From: an uncultured Desulfobacteraceae bacterium
GTDB lineage: Bacteria > Desulfobacterota > Desulfobacteria > Desulfobacterales > Desulfatirhabdiaceae
Assembly (NCBI GenBank): GCA_903839535.1
Contig: CAIMCT010000438.1
Coordinates: 1 to 35,042 of the forward strand
Length of the DNA: 35,042 bases
Direction: 5' to 3'
This document shows, piece after piece, positions 12,317 to 25,387 of the stretch (positions are counted from its first letter, which is position 1; each line of letters opens with the position of its first letter). The notes below the pieces were generated by a model. It was not told where the DNA came from, did no database searches, and saw only the letters and a list, made by a program, of their open reading frames with translations. A program made the translations under genes and the position numbers.

Positions 12317-12358
12317 GCGCTTAAGCACTCACCGCGATAGCTTGGTTGACAGCAAGCC
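12304..12358 (-). ncRNA. Candidate right end / omega RNA structural segment
   Basis: In TnpB elements the guide RNA overlaps the 3' end of tnpB and runs past it to the right end. Here GGCTTGC (12304-12310) can pair with GCAAGCC (12352-12358), and the palindrome TTAAGCGCTTAA lies inside, overlapping the tnpB stop. The position fits an omega RNA scaffold; the real 5' and 3' ends and the guide cannot be told from sequence alone. Confidence 0.35.
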
Positions 12359-13403
12359 TTCCCCGATAAGACAAATTCAGGGAAGCGTTGGCGTCAGCAT
12401 TGGCCGAATGGCCGCAACTGATACAAGAAAAAACACTTTGGCTTTTACGGTTACGCTTATCAATACAATGGCATACAGAGCACTCCCTGCTGGAATTACG
12501 TGGGTCAACAATAATCAAAGGAACGCCAGACCGTTTTGCCTTGTAAGTGATGAAGTGTTTCAGTTCTTGGAAAGCCCAAGAAGCATGGATATATCGCTGA
12601 TTCCTTCTAACCCTGACCCTCTCCCGAATGCCATTGAGGTCTTCAAGGACAATCGCTTGATTCGTGCGTTCAGCATCAGCGACAATATGTTTACTTATGC
12701 AATGGTTGACATCTTTAGAAAAACGGGACTCTTTGTGACGACGATGCTTCAAAAGACGTTTAGCGGACTTCGTGCCTTTCTTTTGGAGTTTCCTGCGGAG
12801 TTTAACATTTCTGATTCTTCGTCCGGTAAGCTCTTTACCAGAGTAGGATTTGCCAGAACTGGTGGATGCAATTTCAACAATACCAAAGTCAACGCCCATA
12901 AATCCATCTGGTATGAATTCTTCGGATTCAACAACGTTACAATATTGATGAATATAAAAAGCACCATCTCTGAAAATAAGATCTGCCTCACCTTGAAGCG
13001 AATTGAGCATGTCGATCTGTTTCACGCCAGCAAGAAACGGAATTTTAATTCTACCTGATACTGTCCAAATCGAAATGTTTTTCTTGTCGAGTTTCCAAGA
13101 AAGAATGCGCGGGTCAAACGGGATTGCGCCGTGCCGAACGAAGACACATTTTCTGTTTACACCCATTTTATATGCGTCTGCAACCTTAGCAATAACTCGC
13201 ACAACAACCTGAGCAGACAGGTTAAATCGTTGCCTGATAATATAATATTGTGACTTGTGGATATCATATTGTCTGAATATTTTATTATCCCAAGCAAACT
13301 CACTGATAAAGTTGGCGGCATCGTTTGAGGTTTCAAGTGTTAGCAAAAGTGCAGAAAACTGTTCTGAGTTTGTGTTAAGTTTAACTTGGGCAATCAATTT
13401 CAT
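12321..13403 (-). CDS. tnpB: TnpB RNA-guided nuclease, OrfB family (360 aa)
   Basis: TnpB cleaves DNA under guidance of an omega RNA from the element end. The RuvC-type residues all look intact: Asp in MGVDFG, Glu in VLEDLNG and Asp in NADANASLN. The C-terminal zinc finger has CSVC and CISC. The start at 13403 is chosen because CTTGAAAGGATATGCC precedes it; the upstream extension is not protein-like. The length is normal for compact TnpB, so the protein is probably active rather than a nuclease-dead derivative. A near-perfect promoter lies upstream. Confidence 0.92.
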   Translation of the reverse strand: MKLIAQVKLNTNSEQFSALLLTLETSNDAANFISEFAWDNKIFRQYDIHKSQYYIIRQRFNLSAQVVVRVIAKVADAYKMGVNRKCVFVRHGAIPFDPRILSWKLDKKNISIWTVSGRIKIPFLAGVKQIDMLNSLQGEADLIFRDGAFYIHQYCNVVESEEFIPDGFMGVDFGIVEIASTSSGKSYSGKELTGRRIRNVKLRRKLQKKGTKSAKRLLKHRRHKESRFSKDVNHCISKHIVADAERTNQAIVLEDLNGIRERVRVRRNQRYIHASWAFQELKHFITYKAKRSGVPLIIVDPRNSSRECSVCHCIDKRNRKSQSVFSCISCGHSANADANASLNLSYRGRLAVNQAIAVSA

Positions 13404-13428
13404 GGCATATCCTTTCAAGTGTTGAAAA

Positions 13429-13457
13429 ATTATATTGCTTTTGAGCAGATATGTCAA
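13429..13457 (-). promoter_or_regulatory. Consensus sigma-70 promoter for tnpB
   Basis: Read on the minus strand, TTGACA (13457-13452) and TATAAT (13434-13429) are separated by exactly 17 bases, a perfect match to the housekeeping consensus, and point at tnpB 26 bases downstream. Such a strong promoter on a tnpB gene is uncommon. Confidence 0.85.
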
Positions 13458-13489
13458 TACAAAACTTAAAATTACAAGGAGGATCGGGC

Positions 13490-13855
13490 GTGTCTCACAC
13501 AATGAACATTGCAATTGAGATGAAAGACATTGACGCACTGGCGGCGGCATGCGAGCGGCTTGGAATTGAAATGTTGCCATACGGCGTTCACAAACTGTTC
13601 TCTTCCAACAGGGAAACAGGCATCGGCGTAATGTTGACAGGTTGGAGTTACCCTGTTGTCGTTAAAGACAATGGAATGGTTGCATTTGATAATTTCAATG
13701 GGCGATGGGGAGATGAAGCCAAACTGAACGAACTCAAGGCATATTATGGGCTTGAGAAGGCCAAAATCGAGGCGAGAAGGGCCGGGTATTCCGTTTACGA
13801 GTCGTTTGATGAAGTCACAAATGACTTGGTTCTGAGAATCAGTATTGGAGGGTGA
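13490..13855 (+). CDS. DUF1257 (Ycf35-like) protein (121 aa)
   Basis: The product starts MSHTMNIAIEMKDIDALAAACERLG, the form typical of DUF1257: an MSH start followed by a strand and a helix rich in Leu/Ala. It continues with a central beta region (VVVKDNGMVAF, NGRWGD) and a C-terminal YSVYESFDEVTNDLVLRI. The GTG start is supported by AAGGAGGA 6 bases upstream. DUF1257 proteins commonly pair with Ycf46 ATPases; here the pair is split by the TnpB element. Function is unknown in the family. Confidence 0.75.
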   Translation: MSHTMNIAIEMKDIDALAAACERLGIEMLPYGVHKLFSSNRETGIGVMLTGWSYPVVVKDNGMVAFDNFNGRWGDEAKLNELKAYYGLEKAKIEARRAGYSVYESFDEVTNDLVLRISIGG

Positions 13856-18344: not shown

Positions 18345-19892
18345 TCAATCTTGCATCGGAGGCGTTTCCCCCGGCAGTTTCACCTGCGACGCAATAACCT
18401 TTTCCCCTTGACCTTTCCCCGCCGCGTTTCCCCCCGCGCCAATATACGTCCTTCCAGCGTTCGGAATGTTCGATTTGGATTTCGGTTGATTATCGAATTT
18501 TTCCTCTTTCAAAGAATCAATCTCATCGTTAATTTTCACCAGCATATCTGTAGTAGCATCTGGCAGGTTCTTCTTTGCAACCATCTTCGCAACTTCCCGC
18601 TTGAACGTAATGGACGGAGACAATGTTCTGGCCATGGTAAGGTTCTGAAGATTCTGGTTCAGGTCGTCAACGCTGAAATCTTTTGTTCGGTACACGTTTA
18701 TCTCATCGTACATATCCGATTGATTCTGCCATTTCAACCACAACCGTATAATGGCAAGCTCTGCCTCTGTCAAGTTGACGCTCTTCTTGGCAAGTACCCT
18801 CCCCAATTGCTGGAACTCATACCGTAAAGCCACTCCCGACCTTACCTGATCCGACTTTTCGTGAGCATGAATACCGGAAAGATGCGACATCTGGTACACT
18901 TCCCCAATCTTCCTGTCAATCCAGTCCATTATTGATTCAATCGGTTCCTTGATTGCAGATTCGAGCCAGTCTGGTTTTCCGTCTTTGCCAAACTCTGGAT
19001 TGAATTGCAAGACGGACGTGTGACCGACTACCTGTTGTGAATCTTCCTGATTATCCGCAGTCTGAGGCAGTCGCAGCATCGGGAACCCCGCAAACTTTAT
19101 GACTTCCTCCCCGCATGACAAATTCCGAATGATACTGGCGTTGATCCGAGCGATCTCTTTAATATCCGACACGCCTATAAATGGGTTATTCGGATTCCTG
19201 ATATTGTGTAGCCATACAAACGGTATCTCACCTAACGAATTCTCCCCCTGAGCATCCAACACCGGATTTTTCTTTGCGTCAATACTCCACATGTACCAAG
19301 AGTCCGTACTCCAGATGATATACTTCCCGTCATTATCCTTCAATTTCAGATATACCAGAGATGGCCGGTTTGTTTCTTCATCCCGCGTGTATCTCCAGTC
19401 CAGAATATTCGGCAGAATATATGATGAGCAATACGGGTATATCCCCTTCTTCAATGCCGTCTTTCGTGTCATGCCGATACTTGACCTGGCTTTATCCACA
19501 AGTACGCCCATTGTCCCGTAGATTGACGCTGTGCGCTGAGATTCAATCAAGAACTCATCGAAGTTTGTATCTGACAAGTCGCAATCTTTCAAGAACATCT
19601 TCCAAAAGGCATCATCCAACAACTTTCCCATGTTCGATCTATCTGGCGCCTTCTCTGTGAGGTAGAATGAGAACAAATCCACCACAATCGCCGCATAGTT
19701 GAATGCGAACCCGTCCTTTACCCTCGCTCTCCAATTCTCTTGAGTCTCACGCGGATGTCTTTCGAGAGATAGCCGTAAGAATTCATCCCCGCCATTATAT
19801 GCACTCCCCATGAAAAGCCATGTGTCGATATTCTGTTTATAAATCTCATGAGTAGATGTTAATTCTTCGTATGTCATTGTGTTTTCTGGCAT
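18345..19892 (-). CDS. Portal protein (515 aa)
   Basis: The length, the position after the large terminase and the pattern of an all-helical clip/stem with a hydrophilic C-terminal tail fit a phage portal of the SPP1 gp6 or DUF4055 type. The middle shows GEIPFVWLHN and ISDIKEIARIN-like core segments, and the C-terminal 60 residues are Gly/Lys/Ser-rich and disordered. Portals form the dodecameric DNA channel at one capsid vertex and bind terminase. AAAGGATTAAAGAAC precedes the ATG on the minus strand. The family name is from overall resemblance. Confidence 0.82.
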   Translation of the reverse strand: MPENTMTYEELTSTHEIYKQNIDTWLFMGSAYNGGDEFLRLSLERHPRETQENWRARVKDGFAFNYAAIVVDLFSFYLTEKAPDRSNMGKLLDDAFWKMFLKDCDLSDTNFDEFLIESQRTASIYGTMGVLVDKARSSIGMTRKTALKKGIYPYCSSYILPNILDWRYTRDEETNRPSLVYLKLKDNDGKYIIWSTDSWYMWSIDAKKNPVLDAQGENSLGEIPFVWLHNIRNPNNPFIGVSDIKEIARINASIIRNLSCGEEVIKFAGFPMLRLPQTADNQEDSQQVVGHTSVLQFNPEFGKDGKPDWLESAIKEPIESIMDWIDRKIGEVYQMSHLSGIHAHEKSDQVRSGVALRYEFQQLGRVLAKKSVNLTEAELAIIRLWLKWQNQSDMYDEINVYRTKDFSVDDLNQNLQNLTMARTLSPSITFKREVAKMVAKKNLPDATTDMLVKINDEIDSLKEEKFDNQPKSKSNIPNAGRTYIGAGGNAAGKGQGEKVIASQVKLPGETPPMQD

Positions 19893-19908
19893 GTTCTTTA
19901 ATCCTTTG

Positions 19909-20085
19909 CTATAACTCGTATCCCGTAAATCGTTTGTATTCAGGCTCGCATTCCGGGTTTAATTTCGCTTTGTGCCGTTCACTTTTCGCAACACATTTTT
20001 TCAGGTGTCTGGCAATGTTCGACCTACTTTTCCGCTTCCACTCTGGGTTATCCCACGTTCCTCTTTGCATTCTTGATAATGCCAT
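19909..20085 (-). CDS. Small basic protein between terL and portal (58 aa)
   Basis: A short minus-strand frame fills the gap between the terminase and portal genes. AAGGA lies 8 bases before the ATG. The product is very basic (WKRKSRSNIARHLKKC) with WDNPEWKRK near the start and ends RFTGYEL. The tryptophan-rich start and basic helix resemble small DNA-binding or HNH-fragment-like proteins, but no active-site motif is seen. It fits the gap exactly. Confidence 0.62.
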   Translation of the reverse strand: MALSRMQRGTWDNPEWKRKSRSNIARHLKKCVAKSERHKAKLNPECEPEYKRFTGYEL

Positions 20086-20101
20086 TTCGATTTCCTTGTC
20101 A

Positions 20102-22378
20102 TCACTTCCAAAAAAGAGGTTTCATCGTAAAAGTGTATCTCGGCTTGGCACACCATAACAAGAATTGGCTGGTAGCATCCACCATATCATCGTGTTTATC
20201 ATACGGGAATGTGGTTATCTGTGTCTCATAATCCACAAGCCACGGGGCGCTCATGGGTAAGAGAACGTTCCCGCCTTCAAAGTAGTGACTTACGCTCGAA
20301 AACCTGGTGACTTTATCAATGTTCATAGTTTTAATTGGTATCACAGGGATAGGCGATATGCGTTTGAACTCTTGAATGAGAGACTGACCAGAAGAACGAT
20401 CCTCCACCAAACAAGCAGAAGCCGCCCATTTCTGATACATTGTGGCGATAGTGTTTTTCAGTTCGTGAAACTCCATCCTGCGGCATAAAACGTCAAGCAG
20501 GTAATATTCGGTTTTGGTAACACCCCAAACCAGAATAGCAGTTGGATCAGCCAATTCAGTTGCTTTAAATGCAGTATCACAACTCAAGACTATCTTTTGA
20601 AACGATGGTAATTTAGCTGAATCGTATTTGCGAAGCCATTCATGCTTAATGATACTGCCTTCTGCTGATACTGGCCTTTGCTGATATTGAGAGTTCCATT
20701 CGTAAGACCCGATAGCAGTCTTGATTGTTTCCAGCGTCTTTAATGGATACGCCTCCGGCCATAACACTTCCCCTCGCTTCCGGCCAAGCATATCATTATC
20801 CTCGGCAATGGCAGGCATATTCAATACAACCCAACCCTCGGATGCGTGTTCCCGTAATAACCATCCAGAAAGATCGTCCTCATGCCAACGAGTATTGTGG
20901 CTAATTAAGCCATTTGCGATAAAATTTTCTGTACCAGCCACCTCAATATCAAAAACATCCTCTCTTGGAGATACATCTATTTTTGTTACGATATCAGGAG
21001 CGATCTCGAATGTGTCGAGCGGCTGCGACTTTATTTTTCCACTTTCCCCATTGACCCGGAAGATTACGTCCGAGACTTGTATATTCTTTAACTTCATCCA
21101 TAATGTTTTGCCATTCCTCTTTATTAAAAATGGATGTCTATCGTTTGCCGTTACACTTGCACCTGATTTAGTCTTAAGAGTGTAACAGTCATCCATTCCC
21201 TGGTTTGCCCAATTGGTTACTTGTGATGGAACAATCTTACCTTTTGAAAACGATGCCACATAGTCACCGACATTAATATCTTTAATTTTCCGCTTAGAAC
21301 CATCAGCCATAGTAACCATTGTGCTTCCAGCCACACAGTTTATAATCACTATTTTCCCGCCAACCATAAGCCGTGTATATGCAACTCCGCGATACCAAGT
21401 CTGGAGCTTTTTGCGTTCCAGTACTGACTCTGCGCTCGCCCTGTCTTTTAATGCATCATCTATTAGGAAGCAGTTGTGGAGGCATATCCCATTTCCGAAG
21501 AAATTATGTGTGGCTTCAACCTGGATATCGTAAACTGGAAAATGTGACTTGGGGATTGTTTTTATCTTTGTAACGTCTGAGAATCGAATACTTCCATCTT
21601 CCCGAACAGAGTCAAGCGTATCTCCTACCTCCAGACAATCCGCTCGAACCCAGCCTTTTCCTTCCCCATAGACAAAAAATAAATGATCAGATGTTGAATA
21701 AATATCCCTGCCGGTATTATTTGAAATGATAAATATGTTTTCATTTATATCCCGCCTTGAAACGGCGATTATCTTTCTATAGACAATTGCAGAATGGTTA
21801 GTGACCCTCGAAGCGGCCATTATCTGGTTGTTTATATTCCATTCATTGTAGATTTCAGATATTTTAATCTCCCCACGATTTGTTAAAACAAGGGTGTCGC
21901 CTCCGACACAATGCGCTCCACGGCCAGTGATACTACCGCCAACACCCATTGAGAAGTATTCCCCGTTCTGATTCGTGCTGAAATGCTGGATAGACTTCAT
22001 GTCATCAGCAATCTGGCAATGCGGGAAAATAGAACGATGAACTCTATCGTCAAGTTGGTTCCTGACTTTACGGCCTACGTCATTCGCGCGTGTTTGGCTG
22101 TACGAACATGAAATAATATGCTTGTCTGGATTGCGGCCTAAAAACCATGCAGGGAAGAACTCGCTTACCAGGGCCGTTTTGCCATGTCGCGGAGGGGCCA
22201 GAACAATGAGCCTCATTATGTCACCGCGCTCCACGGCTTCGAGATATTCAGCAAGAGTTTCGTGCATTTTACCAATCTTGTAAGCGGGGAACTGCATGGC
22301 AGCATAGCAAAGCAACTTGCTATATGCCAATTCTTCAATACTTATCATTTTGGGCTGTTCTGGTTTAGCGGCTGGCAT
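20102..22378 (-). CDS. terL: Terminase large subunit with two mini-inteins (758 aa precursor)
   Basis: The ATPase and nuclease motor packages DNA into the head. Walker A is APPRHGKT (61-68). The Walker B strand FLIDD follows intein 1 at residue 304, and the TRWHEDD motif follows intein 2 at residue 496. Nuclease acidic residues are Asp600 (SCDTAF), Glu659 (VEDRSSG) and HDDMVDA (729-735). Intein 1 spans 157-302 and intein 2 spans 348-495; removing both leaves 464 residues, a normal TerL length. The exteins join as GRGAH-CFLIDD and VIIN-TRWHEDD. Confidence 0.93.
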   Translation of the reverse strand: MPAAKPEQPKMISIEELAYSKLLCYAAMQFPAYKIGKMHETLAEYLEAVERGDIMRLIVLAPPRHGKTALVSEFFPAWFLGRNPDKHIISCSYSQTRANDVGRKVRNQLDDRVHRSIFPHCQIADDMKSIQHFSTNQNGEYFSMGVGGSITGRGAHCVGGDTLVLTNRGEIKISEIYNEWNINNQIMAASRVTNHSAIVYRKIIAVSRRDINENIFIISNNTGRDIYSTSDHLFFVYGEGKGWVRADCLEVGDTLDSVREDGSIRFSDVTKIKTIPKSHFPVYDIQVEATHNFFGNGICLHNCFLIDDALKDRASAESVLERKKLQTWYRGVAYTRLMVGGKIVIINCVAGSTMVTMADGSKRKIKDINVGDYVASFSKGKIVPSQVTNWANQGMDDCYTLKTKSGASVTANDRHPFLIKRNGKTLWMKLKNIQVSDVIFRVNGESGKIKSQPLDTFEIAPDIVTKIDVSPREDVFDIEVAGTENFIANGLISHNTRWHEDDLSGWLLREHASEGWVVLNMPAIAEDNDMLGRKRGEVLWPEAYPLKTLETIKTAIGSYEWNSQYQQRPVSAEGSIIKHEWLRKYDSAKLPSFQKIVLSCDTAFKATELADPTAILVWGVTKTEYYLLDVLCRRMEFHELKNTIATMYQKWAASACLVEDRSSGQSLIQEFKRISPIPVIPIKTMNIDKVTRFSSVSHYFEGGNVLLPMSAPWLVDYETQITTFPYDKHDDMVDATSQFLLWCAKPRYTFTMKPLFWK
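20894..21337 (-). mobile_element. Mini-intein 2 in terL (148 aa)
   Basis: The intein begins CVAGST, has TANDRHPF in block B and ends with VFDIEV, TENFIANG and SHN; the next extein residue is Thr of TRWHEDD. At 148 residues it also lacks an endonuclease. Its sequence differs clearly from intein 1 outside the splicing blocks, so the two are separate acquisitions or an old duplication. Confidence 0.93.
21473..21910 (-). mobile_element. Mini-intein 1 in terL (146 aa)
   Basis: The intein begins with Cys (CVGGDT, block A), has TSDH in block B (residues 73-76 of the intein) and ends with VYDIQV, THNFF and LHN, the penultimate His and final Asn of block F-G. The next extein residue is Cys. At 146 residues there is no homing endonuclease domain. 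All catalytic residues for self-splicing appear to be present. Confidence 0.93.
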
Positions 22379-22381
22379 TTT

Positions 22382-22696
22382 TTATACTCTTTCGATTGTT
22401 TCCAAGAATCCATCCTGCCATGTTCCACAATGTGGGCAGTAAACACCTTCTGTGTTAATTGCGAAATAATCACAACCGCAGTCGCACGTCCAGTGTGGTT
22501 CTTTGCGTTTTACTGGATAAATGAATCTACCTTTTACCAATGAGCATGACGGGCATTCAAGCCAATCGAATCCTGGTGGTGATTCTGATTCCCATTCGTA
22601 ATCGCAAGACAAACATCTTGCTTTGCCGATAAGATTCGACAGTGACTTGCGGTATAGTTTTACTGCTTCCATACTGACGACTTTAGCGACGGGCAT
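22382..22696 (-). CDS. Zinc-ribbon protein between terS and terL (104 aa)
   Basis: Four knuckles (CLSC, CPSC, CDCGC and CPHC) predict two zinc ribbons. The start overlaps the small terminase stop by one base and the end is 3 bases before terL, so it is part of the packaging operon. It could assist DNA recognition by the terminase complex; that is inference from position. Confidence 0.72.
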   Translation of the reverse strand: MPVAKVVSMEAVKLYRKSLSNLIGKARCLSCDYEWESESPPGFDWLECPSCSLVKGRFIYPVKRKEPHWTCDCGCDYFAINTEGVYCPHCGTWQDGFLETIERV

Positions 22697-23196
22697 TACT
22701 CATTCCCCTCAATCAGCCTTTTTGAATCTGGAGTAACGTTTATCATCGGCCTTGAATTGCCATACTTTGCTGCATTCGCTACGGCATCAAGCATTTCCTT
22801 TGGGTATTTATTCTCGACTGTTCCCTGAAACTGTATCTGTTCAACATATCCCCGATCTTGGCACTTGGATTTCAAGAAGAACAACGTCGCCACCATGCCT
22901 ACCTTGTTATTCATCCCCATAAACTCCCGCAGCCGTCTTTCCCCCCAATCTTTTATCCCTTCCTCACATATTTCCAGTCGTTTTTTTAATTCAGGGTATT
23001 TTTTGAGCCACCTGTGAAACTGTCCGGGCAATATGCCTACGGCTGCCATCGTATTGTCTCTATCCCAATCGTGTTTTGGATACGCTTTCAAGAACAATGC
23101 GAATTTAGACTTTACGAACTCAGGAGGTGTAGCAGTCACATCGTAATTGCCATTATCGCTCTTTTGACAGACTACAACGTTTGATATTTTTGGCAT
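22696..23196 (-). CDS. Terminase small subunit-like protein (166 aa)
   Basis: The first gene of the minus-strand packaging operon. Residues about 35-75 form a helix-turn-helix of the type used by small terminases (NTMAAVGILPGQFHRWLKKYP), then a long helix ICEEGIKDWGERRLREFM and ATLFFLKSKCQDRGYVE, the usual core of such proteins. The start at 23196 is preferred because GGGG lies 7 bases upstream; the ATG at 23208 lacks a site. It would recognise the packaging site and present DNA to TerL. Confidence 0.75.
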   Translation of the reverse strand: MPKISNVVVCQKSDNGNYDVTATPPEFVKSKFALFLKAYPKHDWDRDNTMAAVGILPGQFHRWLKKYPELKKRLEICEEGIKDWGERRLREFMGMNNKVGMVATLFFLKSKCQDRGYVEQIQFQGTVENKYPKEMLDAVANAAKYGNSRPMINVTPDSKRLIEGNE

Positions 23197-23264
23197 TTGG
23201 AACCCCATTGGACAAATAAAATATTGTTTTTAAACAAAATGTGACGAAAACTAACATATTTATC

Positions 23265-24244: not shown

Positions 24245-25387
24245 ATGGCTAATACCAATACTTTAACTTATGCTATCCCCACATTGCTCGCACAGGGCCT
24301 CATGGCGTTACGCGCAAATTGCGTTATGCCGCGTCTCGTCAATCGTAACTTTGAGAACATGGCTGCCGAGAAGATGGCGACTATCAATGTTCCGATCCCA
24401 TCTGCAATCACATCCGTAGCAGTATCCCCGTCTTATGTTCCCCCCGACACTGCCGGTGTTGTTCCTTCCAGTGTGCCTATCGCACTTGATCAGTGGTACG
24501 AGGCTGGTTTCTTCTTGTCTGATAAGGATCAAGTGGAATCCATTAACGGCCTTATCCCAATGCAGGCTTCCGAGGCTATCAAGAGCCTTTCCAATAGAAT
24601 CGACGCTGCTCTGCTTGGATTATACACTGATGTTTACGGTTGGGCCGGTTCATCTGGAGTTACCCCATTCGCATCTGATATTTCTGAAATCACCGCTGCT
24701 CGAACTGTTCTGAACAAACAGCTTGCGCCGAATGATGATAGACGGTTCGTTATTTCTCCTGATGCCGAAGGTAATGCACTTGGATTGAGAGCATTTCAGG
24801 ACATGTCTTTTTCAGGTTCAGCACAGGGGATTGTTGACGGCAAGATTAACAGAAAGCTCGGTTTCGACTGGTATATGGATCAGAACGTTCCAGTACACAC
24901 AACCGGAACCGTCGCCGTTTCATGGATATGCAAAACCAGTACAGCCGTTGTTGCAGGCCTTAAAACTGCCGTAACTACTACGGGTGGGACTGCCGCATTG
25001 GTAAAAGGAGATGTGTTTACCATCGCTGGCCAAACACAAACATACGTTCTGACAGCAGATGCAACTCGATCCGGTGGCGGCGATATGACCATCTATTTTG
25101 AACCTGGGCTGAAAACTGCTCTTGCCGGTGACGAGGCGATTACTCTCAAAGCTTCACATACCGTCAACTTGGCATTCCATCGTGATGCTTTTGCATTCGT
25201 ATCTCGGCCATTGGCTGATAACGCTGACGGCCTTGGCAATATCATCCAATCCGCCATTGACCCTGTAAGCGGCCTTGCGTTAAGACTTGAAGTATCCCGT
25301 GAGCATAAACGAACCAAATTCTCTTATGATATTTTATATGGGCTTGCGTGTGTCAGGCGTGATCTTGCCTGCCGTATCGCCGGATAA
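24245..25387 (+). CDS. Major capsid protein, P22 gp5-like (380 aa)
   Basis: The N-terminus LTYAIPTLLAQGLMALR with VMPRLVNRNF and the C-terminus DILYGLACVRRDLACRIAG match the P22-type coat family, a variant of the HK97 fold. Middle segments such as IPSAI, PIALDQWYEAGFFLSDKD and RFVISPDAEG fit too. The region about 225-300 has short Thr/Ala/Gly-rich beta segments, likely the inserted domain. It forms the capsid shell. AGGAGGG 9 bases before the ATG is the best ribosome site in the region, as suits the most abundant protein. Confidence 0.88.
   Translation: MANTNTLTYAIPTLLAQGLMALRANCVMPRLVNRNFENMAAEKMATINVPIPSAITSVAVSPSYVPPDTAGVVPSSVPIALDQWYEAGFFLSDKDQVESINGLIPMQASEAIKSLSNRIDAALLGLYTDVYGWAGSSGVTPFASDISEITAARTVLNKQLAPNDDRRFVISPDAEGNALGLRAFQDMSFSGSAQGIVDGKINRKLGFDWYMDQNVPVHTTGTVAVSWICKTSTAVVAGLKTAVTTTGGTAALVKGDVFTIAGQTQTYVLTADATRSGGGDMTIYFEPGLKTALAGDEAITLKASHTVNLAFHRDAFAFVSRPLADNADGLGNIIQSAIDPVSGLALRLEVSREHKRTKFSYDILYGLACVRRDLACRIAG

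Follow-up and report, generated by a model that had tools for sequence, protein, structure and literature searches.

What this locus asks is what the two insertions in its large terminase (TerL) are, and from what kind of element they descend. The window, by which we mean the whole 35,042-nucleotide stretch analysed here (contig CAIMCT010000438.1, from an uncultured Desulfobacteraceae assembly), encodes a TerL interrupted twice by segments that a preliminary description had called endonuclease-free inteins. We think, with a probability of roughly nine in ten, that both are self-excising mini-inteins, that the second arose by deletion from a family of inteins carrying an overprinted endonuclease VII, and that the first, as we infer from its relatives, may have had a similar history. 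Related loci and contigs compared with the window are labelled L001, L002 and so on.

Two mini-inteins in one large terminase

The terL precursor gene (20102..22378, minus strand) is a single open frame of 758 codons plus stop. Pfam recognises its RNase H-like nuclease domain, Terminase_6C (PF17289), with E 2.7e-17 and 63.6 bits (cut-off 22.6), and places the N-terminal ATPase domain, Terminase_6N (PF03237), just below its cut-off (E 1.7e-4, 21.8 bits against 22), this domain being split by the inteins; in the intein-free TerL of L002 both families exceed their cut-offs, PF03237 with 46.1 bits. Translation, together with alignment to L002, gives an N-extein of 156 aa with the P-loop RHGKT and the C-terminal end GRGAH (21911..22378, minus strand) and a middle extein of 45 aa, running from CFLIDD to VIIN and containing Walker B (21338..21472, minus strand); translation and Pfam give a C-extein of 263 aa plus stop, with the C-motif TRWHEDD and the nuclease domain (20102..20893, minus strand). 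Intein 1 (146 aa, residues 157-302, +1 Cys; 21473..21910, minus strand) sits at the Walker-B site and is recognised by Pfam, alignment and structure match; intein 2 (148 aa, residues 348-495, +1 Thr; 20894..21337, minus strand) sits at the C-motif site and is recognised by Pfam and alignments.

A class 1 intein has Cys1, a His in block B, a C-terminal His-Asn and a Cys, Ser or Thr at +1. Read from the sequence, intein 1 has Cys1, STSDH in block B, an LHN end and +1 Cys, and intein 2 has Cys1, ANDRH in block B, an SHN end and +1 Thr; the Asn that replaces the usual Thr in block B of intein 2 is also found in the family of inteins at the C-motif site. Both thus carry the class 1 residues, and both have the Hint fold: Intein_splicing (PF14890) matches TerL in three stretches (E 1.8e-31), and the top PDB match of the TerL structure model is a DnaB mini-intein (E 2.9e-10), with RecA mini-inteins also matching and terminases among the matches (8dgc_E, 3.5e-9; 5oee_C, 2.3e-6). 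The model of the whole precursor is itself of moderate quality (mean pLDDT 72.4, pTM 0.48). No nuclease family was found inside either intein by the Pfam scan, and in the window's own genome the intein-family matches are confined to the terL gene. Among host relatives, 6/57 genomes match (the window's own included), the remaining five weakly.

That these segments are insertions, and not normal parts of the protein, is confirmed by the 455-aa TerL of L002, which runs without interruption through both sites (one just before Walker B, the other before TRWH) and has colinear flanks; removal of both inteins leaves 464 aa colinear with it. The preliminary description thus had the lengths, the splicing residues, the sites and the 464 residues left after removal right, and erred by one in the spacing, which is 45 extein residues and not 46. 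The first +1 position is Leu in L002 and Cys in the window, the residue that splicing would need. Judging from residues, fold and relatives, the 758-aa precursor would be self-splicing: with both Hint-type mini-inteins released, GRGAH would be linked to CFLIDD and VIIN to TRWH, and the product would be a 464-aa packaging ATPase-nuclease.

As for the genomic context, a portal protein gene lies downstream (18345..19892, minus strand; phrog_145, E 5.3e-57), and a 104-aa ORF (22382-22696, minus strand), with weak zinc-ribbon-like Pfam matches below the family cut-offs, adjoins terL upstream. Terminase and portal occupy the minus strand (18345-23208), and the plus strand carries a P22-like coat gene (PF11651, E 3.3e-26) along with the tail genes (region 24245-25387); the tape measure gene is truncated by the contig end. 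The contig also holds a TnpB/Cas12f-like gene (12321-13580, minus strand; PF07282 E 9e-19, OrfB_IS605 9.9e-6). Neither an Rfam match at gathering score nor a tRNA was found in the window.

Terminase inteins are already known, as had been pointed out, and the sites on record include the P-loop, Walker B and the C-motif (PMC5050341). The further opinion that two in one TerL is unusual is weak, since several related loci also carry two or more. Inteins occupy the same two sites as in the window in L001 and L062; L003 and L004 have a P-loop intein and a Walker-B intein and lack the C-motif intein; L017 and L022 combine a P-loop intein, with a LAGLIDADG_3 match inside, and a C-motif intein. The P-loop inteins of L003 and L004 (inserted between RHGK and T) have no Cys1 and appear class-3-like by eye, and that of L004 has LAGLIDADG-type domains in frame. 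At the DNA level the exteins of L001 share 86 to 90% identity with those of the window, yet at the same two sites only 55/143 residues (about 38%; splicing parts, intein 1) and 47/139 aligned residues (intein 2) are identical, as if the two sites had been filled by different lineages.

An endonuclease VII in the +2 frame of C-motif-site inteins

The inteins at the C-motif site form a large phage family. Intein 2 qualifies for the TerL6-f family, being inserted immediately before T-R-W-H and having a related splicing domain, as in the mycobacteriophage representative (Chandler gp6; PMC5050341), which is inserted directly before TRW and belongs to the same Hint family. Used as a query, intein 2 of the window retrieved 21 viral loci, and a search with an N-terminal alignment retrieved 452, the best 80 of which were used, together with six contigs from bacterial genomes or MAGs; 57 phage records match intein 2.

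In most of the members read, the middle of the intein is noise-like in its own frame, and the +2 frame encodes a protein of the endonuclease VII family. PF02945 was found in 10/10 of the hidden ORFs tested (E 4.7e-17 or better), and a hidden endonuclease VII is present in the +2 frame of 69 of the 74 non-redundant inteins derived from the best 80 of 452 viral relatives. Among the other five, four gave no match; in L048 the nuclease is read in the frame of the intein, and that frame stops there. Named phages with this arrangement include Angelicage and Fosterous (Gordonia) and AlanGrant, phi1_186018 and Chandler (Mycobacterium/Mycolicibacterium), the Chandler intein being 254 aa long in its record. 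Compared with it, intein 2 of the window has only 148 aa and a relic of the nuclease, and the window TerL has a second intein. In six phage records examined, the terminase is annotated (in Phlyer the intein too), and no nuclease is annotated inside the terminase gene. As far as PMC5050341 could be consulted, nuclease activity is tied there to identifiable domains for TerL1-b and -c only, and not for TerL6-f. A hidden nuclease is not obligatory at this site, because L026, which has the same insertion point, lacks a hidden endonuclease VII; LAGLIDADG-like motifs are seen by eye in its own frame.

The count of 74 was made after merging near-duplicates (more than 90% identical). It leaves aside L026 and, for L049, L062 and L122, the rows of their additional inteins (all removed by an N-terminal residue filter), L035, L037, L125 and L130 (removed by name) and L028, L029, L030, L036 and L080 (no row in the N-terminal profile search). 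We treated 61 of the 74 as full length, including the shortened L116 (215 aa); outside the 61 are L010, L011, L043, L047, L048, L049, L067, L068, L070, L083, L085, L096 and L123. In L083, L085 and L123 the ORF tails suggest a frame open as far as the end of the terminase, which the end-finding pattern did not pick up, and L047 stops with its contig.

Is the hidden frame a gene? Its start lies on a conserved Trp codon of the intein in 61/61 full-length members (from the best 80 of 452), as ATG in 49 and GTG in 12; at other Trp codons of the exteins, the base preceding TGG is A in 199/961 and G in 364/961. A Shine-Dalgarno-like core (GGAG, GAGG or AGGA at -16 to -5) precedes the start in 38/61 members, against 1509 of 17,543 control positions; the core so defined is absent in the remaining 23/61. 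Over 10,027 hidden codons there are 659 stops in the third frame and none in the intein frame, the 61 members having been selected as open to the C-terminal junction. Synonymous recoding leads one to expect 3.1 intein-frame stops per intein, with a mean probability of an open frame of 0.07; among the 74, where openness was not a selection, the intein frame is broken once (L048) and cut by a contig end once (L047). Identity is higher in the hidden frame than in the linker in 1830/1830 pairs (means 0.50 vs 0.28), and nucleotide identity at hidden codon positions 1, 2 and 3 is 0.61, 0.65 and 0.40. The members being related, none of these counts is made up of independent trials. The structure model of the L014 intein has confident splicing halves, and linker residues 99-221 have pLDDT below 50 and no predicted structure.

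From this coding signal, the conservation of start and ribosome site, and the distribution of the family, we think that the hidden nucleases of the relatives are probably translated by internal initiation and would drive homing. One might prefer a ribosomal frameshift within the intein as the way of reaching them, the hidden frame being often open upstream of the start, for 0 to 90 nt. We consider this improbable: the start codon is conserved in 61/61 members, the ribosome-site core lies ahead of it in 38/61, and in 4/61 members (L014, L020, L040, L112) a stop abuts the start.

The relic in intein 2, and the Walker-B site

The window has preserved what remains of one of these hidden nuclease genes. 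Translation and a profile scan reveal, in the +2 frame of intein 2, a stretch of 35 codons plus stop (20994..21101, minus strand) in which a family-like start part (GRNLPGQWGKWKN) is joined, in one open frame, to a family-like end part (AAARHIRDRS). The start-part profile scores 35.3 bits here, the next best among 69,996 window positions being 9.8 and the family median 40.6. The end-part profile is also highest at this place, yet weakly so (9.4 bits vs 9.3 for the next; family median 26.9). Upstream of the relic's ATG (21102..21121, minus strand), GGCA stands where many relatives have GGAG (-11), and an AGGA lies further out, at -17 to -14. The intein frame itself retains QPLDTFEIAPD, a sequence like that of the other members where their hidden gene ends. 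The claim that both inteins are endonuclease-free is thus correct as regards an in-frame nuclease, which neither has, and incomplete as regards intein 2, where the hidden frame retains these 35 codons and no full-length +2 ORF.

In our reading, intein 2 goes back to a widespread kind of phage intein in which endonuclease VII is overprinted in the +2 frame and not fused in frame. The nuclease of these inteins has a start codon of its own, placed on the conserved Trp codon and often with a Shine-Dalgarno-like site ahead of it, and comparison shows that in the window an internal deletion has joined both ends of the hidden gene. On the evidence of its sequence, intein 2 is shown to be a descendant, and not a present member, of the inteins with an overprinted endonuclease VII. 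Other members have been shortened as well (L010, L043, L049, L067, L068, L070, L096 and L116), and L011 retains the start only; because the junctions of the shortened members differ, the hidden gene was probably lost repeatedly. A search of the window's own genome for endonuclease VII gave no match, but control genomes were equally silent.

It could be objected that there is nothing special about these mini-inteins, that the nuclease their ancestors lost was an in-frame one, and that the +2-frame likeness in intein 2 is fortuitous. The weakness of the end part, the lack of any relic in intein 1 and the example of L026 speak for this objection. Yet chance would have to account for a start part that far outscores every other window position and falls at the conserved start, for the adjacency of both relic parts in one open frame, and for the same kind of junction in other short members, and we find it very unlikely.

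For intein 1 the argument goes through relatives at the same site. A single-sequence search of viral contigs gave seven pattern matches, none of them confirmed, and an alignment search gave seven loci, three of which (L136 to L138) are the same contigs as L003, L004 and L001. Only nine phage records match intein 1, all of them from Corynebacterium phages at about 28% identity.

The Walker-B inteins of L001, L003 and L004 are 351, 366 and 369 aa long, and the +1 frame of each has an ORF in which Cys pairs of zinc-finger type accompany an HNH; HNH_3 matches these ORFs with E 9.8e-4 (below the family cut-off), 1.2e-5 and 9.7e-7 (both above it), respectively. Searching with an alignment of the hidden HNH brought up these three contigs and no others. 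The Walker-B intein of L062 has a related hidden ORF (29.6 to 31.5% identity, E 8e-18 to 9e-30), so that a single TerL combines a full-length intein with a hidden HNH and a full C-motif intein with a hidden endonuclease VII. In these four inteins the intein frame has no stop where 15.8 to 30.2 are expected, and 0/2000 recodings per locus were open. The other forward frames of intein 1 in the window are open nowhere for more than 150 nt, and with no HNH ORF in its +1 frame there is no direct link to a hidden HNH. Intein 1 stands at a site where the full-length inteins of relatives hold a hidden zinc-finger HNH, and by analogy with them we infer that it may once have held one.

Taken together, the two inteins have the appearance of elements that go back to nuclease-overprinted inteins and are no longer mobile; this descent is demonstrated for intein 2 and conjectured for intein 1. 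Neither would now be able to spread alone, to judge from the coding signal, the conservation of start and ribosome site, and the distribution of the relatives.

Function, precedents and wider reading

The preliminary description also suggested that splicing could time the start of DNA packaging. A related proposal, that the inteins have been kept as a switch whose condition-responsive splicing times packaging, has in its favour that a TerL with interrupted ATPase motifs cannot be active, which is established and is also argued in PMC5050341. We regard it as very improbable, however: the sites are empty in relatives (both in L002, the C-motif site in L003 and L004), the related Chandler gp6 intein (TerL6-f) spliced readily in a reporter (PMC5050341), and nothing conditional was found in the window terL, so that the timing idea is left unsupported. 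A reading of the segments as open-frame RNA introns, or as regular parts of this terminase, is barely tenable even though a related endonuclease VII lies within a TerL annotated as two joined pieces in rV5-like phages, given the Hint sequence, fold and splicing residues, the lack of both segments in L002 and, as a weak test in which the rV5-like L135 was also silent, the lack of any Rfam match in the window and nine related loci. In those rV5-like Escherichia phages (L134, L135), the endonuclease VII nested in the joined TerL perhaps belongs to an intron with a related nuclease.

Several systems in the literature are partly comparable. TerL1-e resembles intein 1 in that it interrupts a large terminase at Walker B (a likeness of motif, not of aligned position), in a host protein of the Terminase_1 family, unlike the Terminase_6 of the window (PMC5050341). 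Out-of-frame HNH nucleases have been described in methylase insertions (PMC11855218; PMC12613952): the ShiLan domain likewise leaves the frame of its host open while a different frame encodes an HNH nuclease, and differs in lying in a methylase, in lacking a splicing domain and in having no ribosome site that could be detected, according to PMC11855218. In the MIJ3 PolB split intein an HNH nuclease gene is likewise tied to a phage Hint intein, as a separate ORF between the halves of a split gene and not overprinted (PMC6892783). A literature search, with bioRxiv outside its scope, found no title or abstract opening that reports a Hint intein with a nuclease out of frame. In its conclusion, PMC11855218 refers on the matter of overlapping frames to a 2025 preprint about the "non-canonical architecture" of actinobacteriophage inteins, and this preprint may already report such overprinted inteins.

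Some further cases were seen along the way. An intein in a Terminase_3 protein (L141:2129-2749) has a +1-frame ORF for a DUF559/Vsr-like nuclease (PF04480, E 3.6e-15). In L142 (322-1164, minus strand) the strand opposite to an intein holds an ORF of DUF559/MTES_1575 type (E 3.5e-8 and 7.8e-9, the second value being below its cut-off), and further downstream lies another intein, whose DUF559 is in frame. The second intein of L049 (2996-3979), near the C-terminal nuclease motif (between NDDV and C), marks a third TerL site and has a +2-frame ORF that is HNH-like by eye.

We would give slightly less than even odds to a broader reading: that phage inteins commonly overprint homing-type nucleases in another frame or strand, with the start and part of the ribosome-binding site placed in conserved intein codons; that the linker encoded in the intein frame is a placeholder without structure; and that many "endonuclease-free" mini-inteins, intein 2 of the window included, are deletion fossils. 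The named phages Chandler, Angelicage and AlanGrant make the overprinting idea directly testable.

Double mini-inteins in a TerL are modest when taken alone; the interesting part lies in the overprinted nucleases and in the relic of the window, which is a clear fossil of nuclease loss. Inteins are usually called "mini" or "full" according to their in-frame nuclease. If nucleases are often overprinted, mobile inteins will have been wrongly classed as lacking a nuclease or as oddities, and the long featureless linkers of phage inteins become readable. Mobility would then, if this is true, be separated from splicing, the nuclease being made, lost or tuned outside the splicing precursor.
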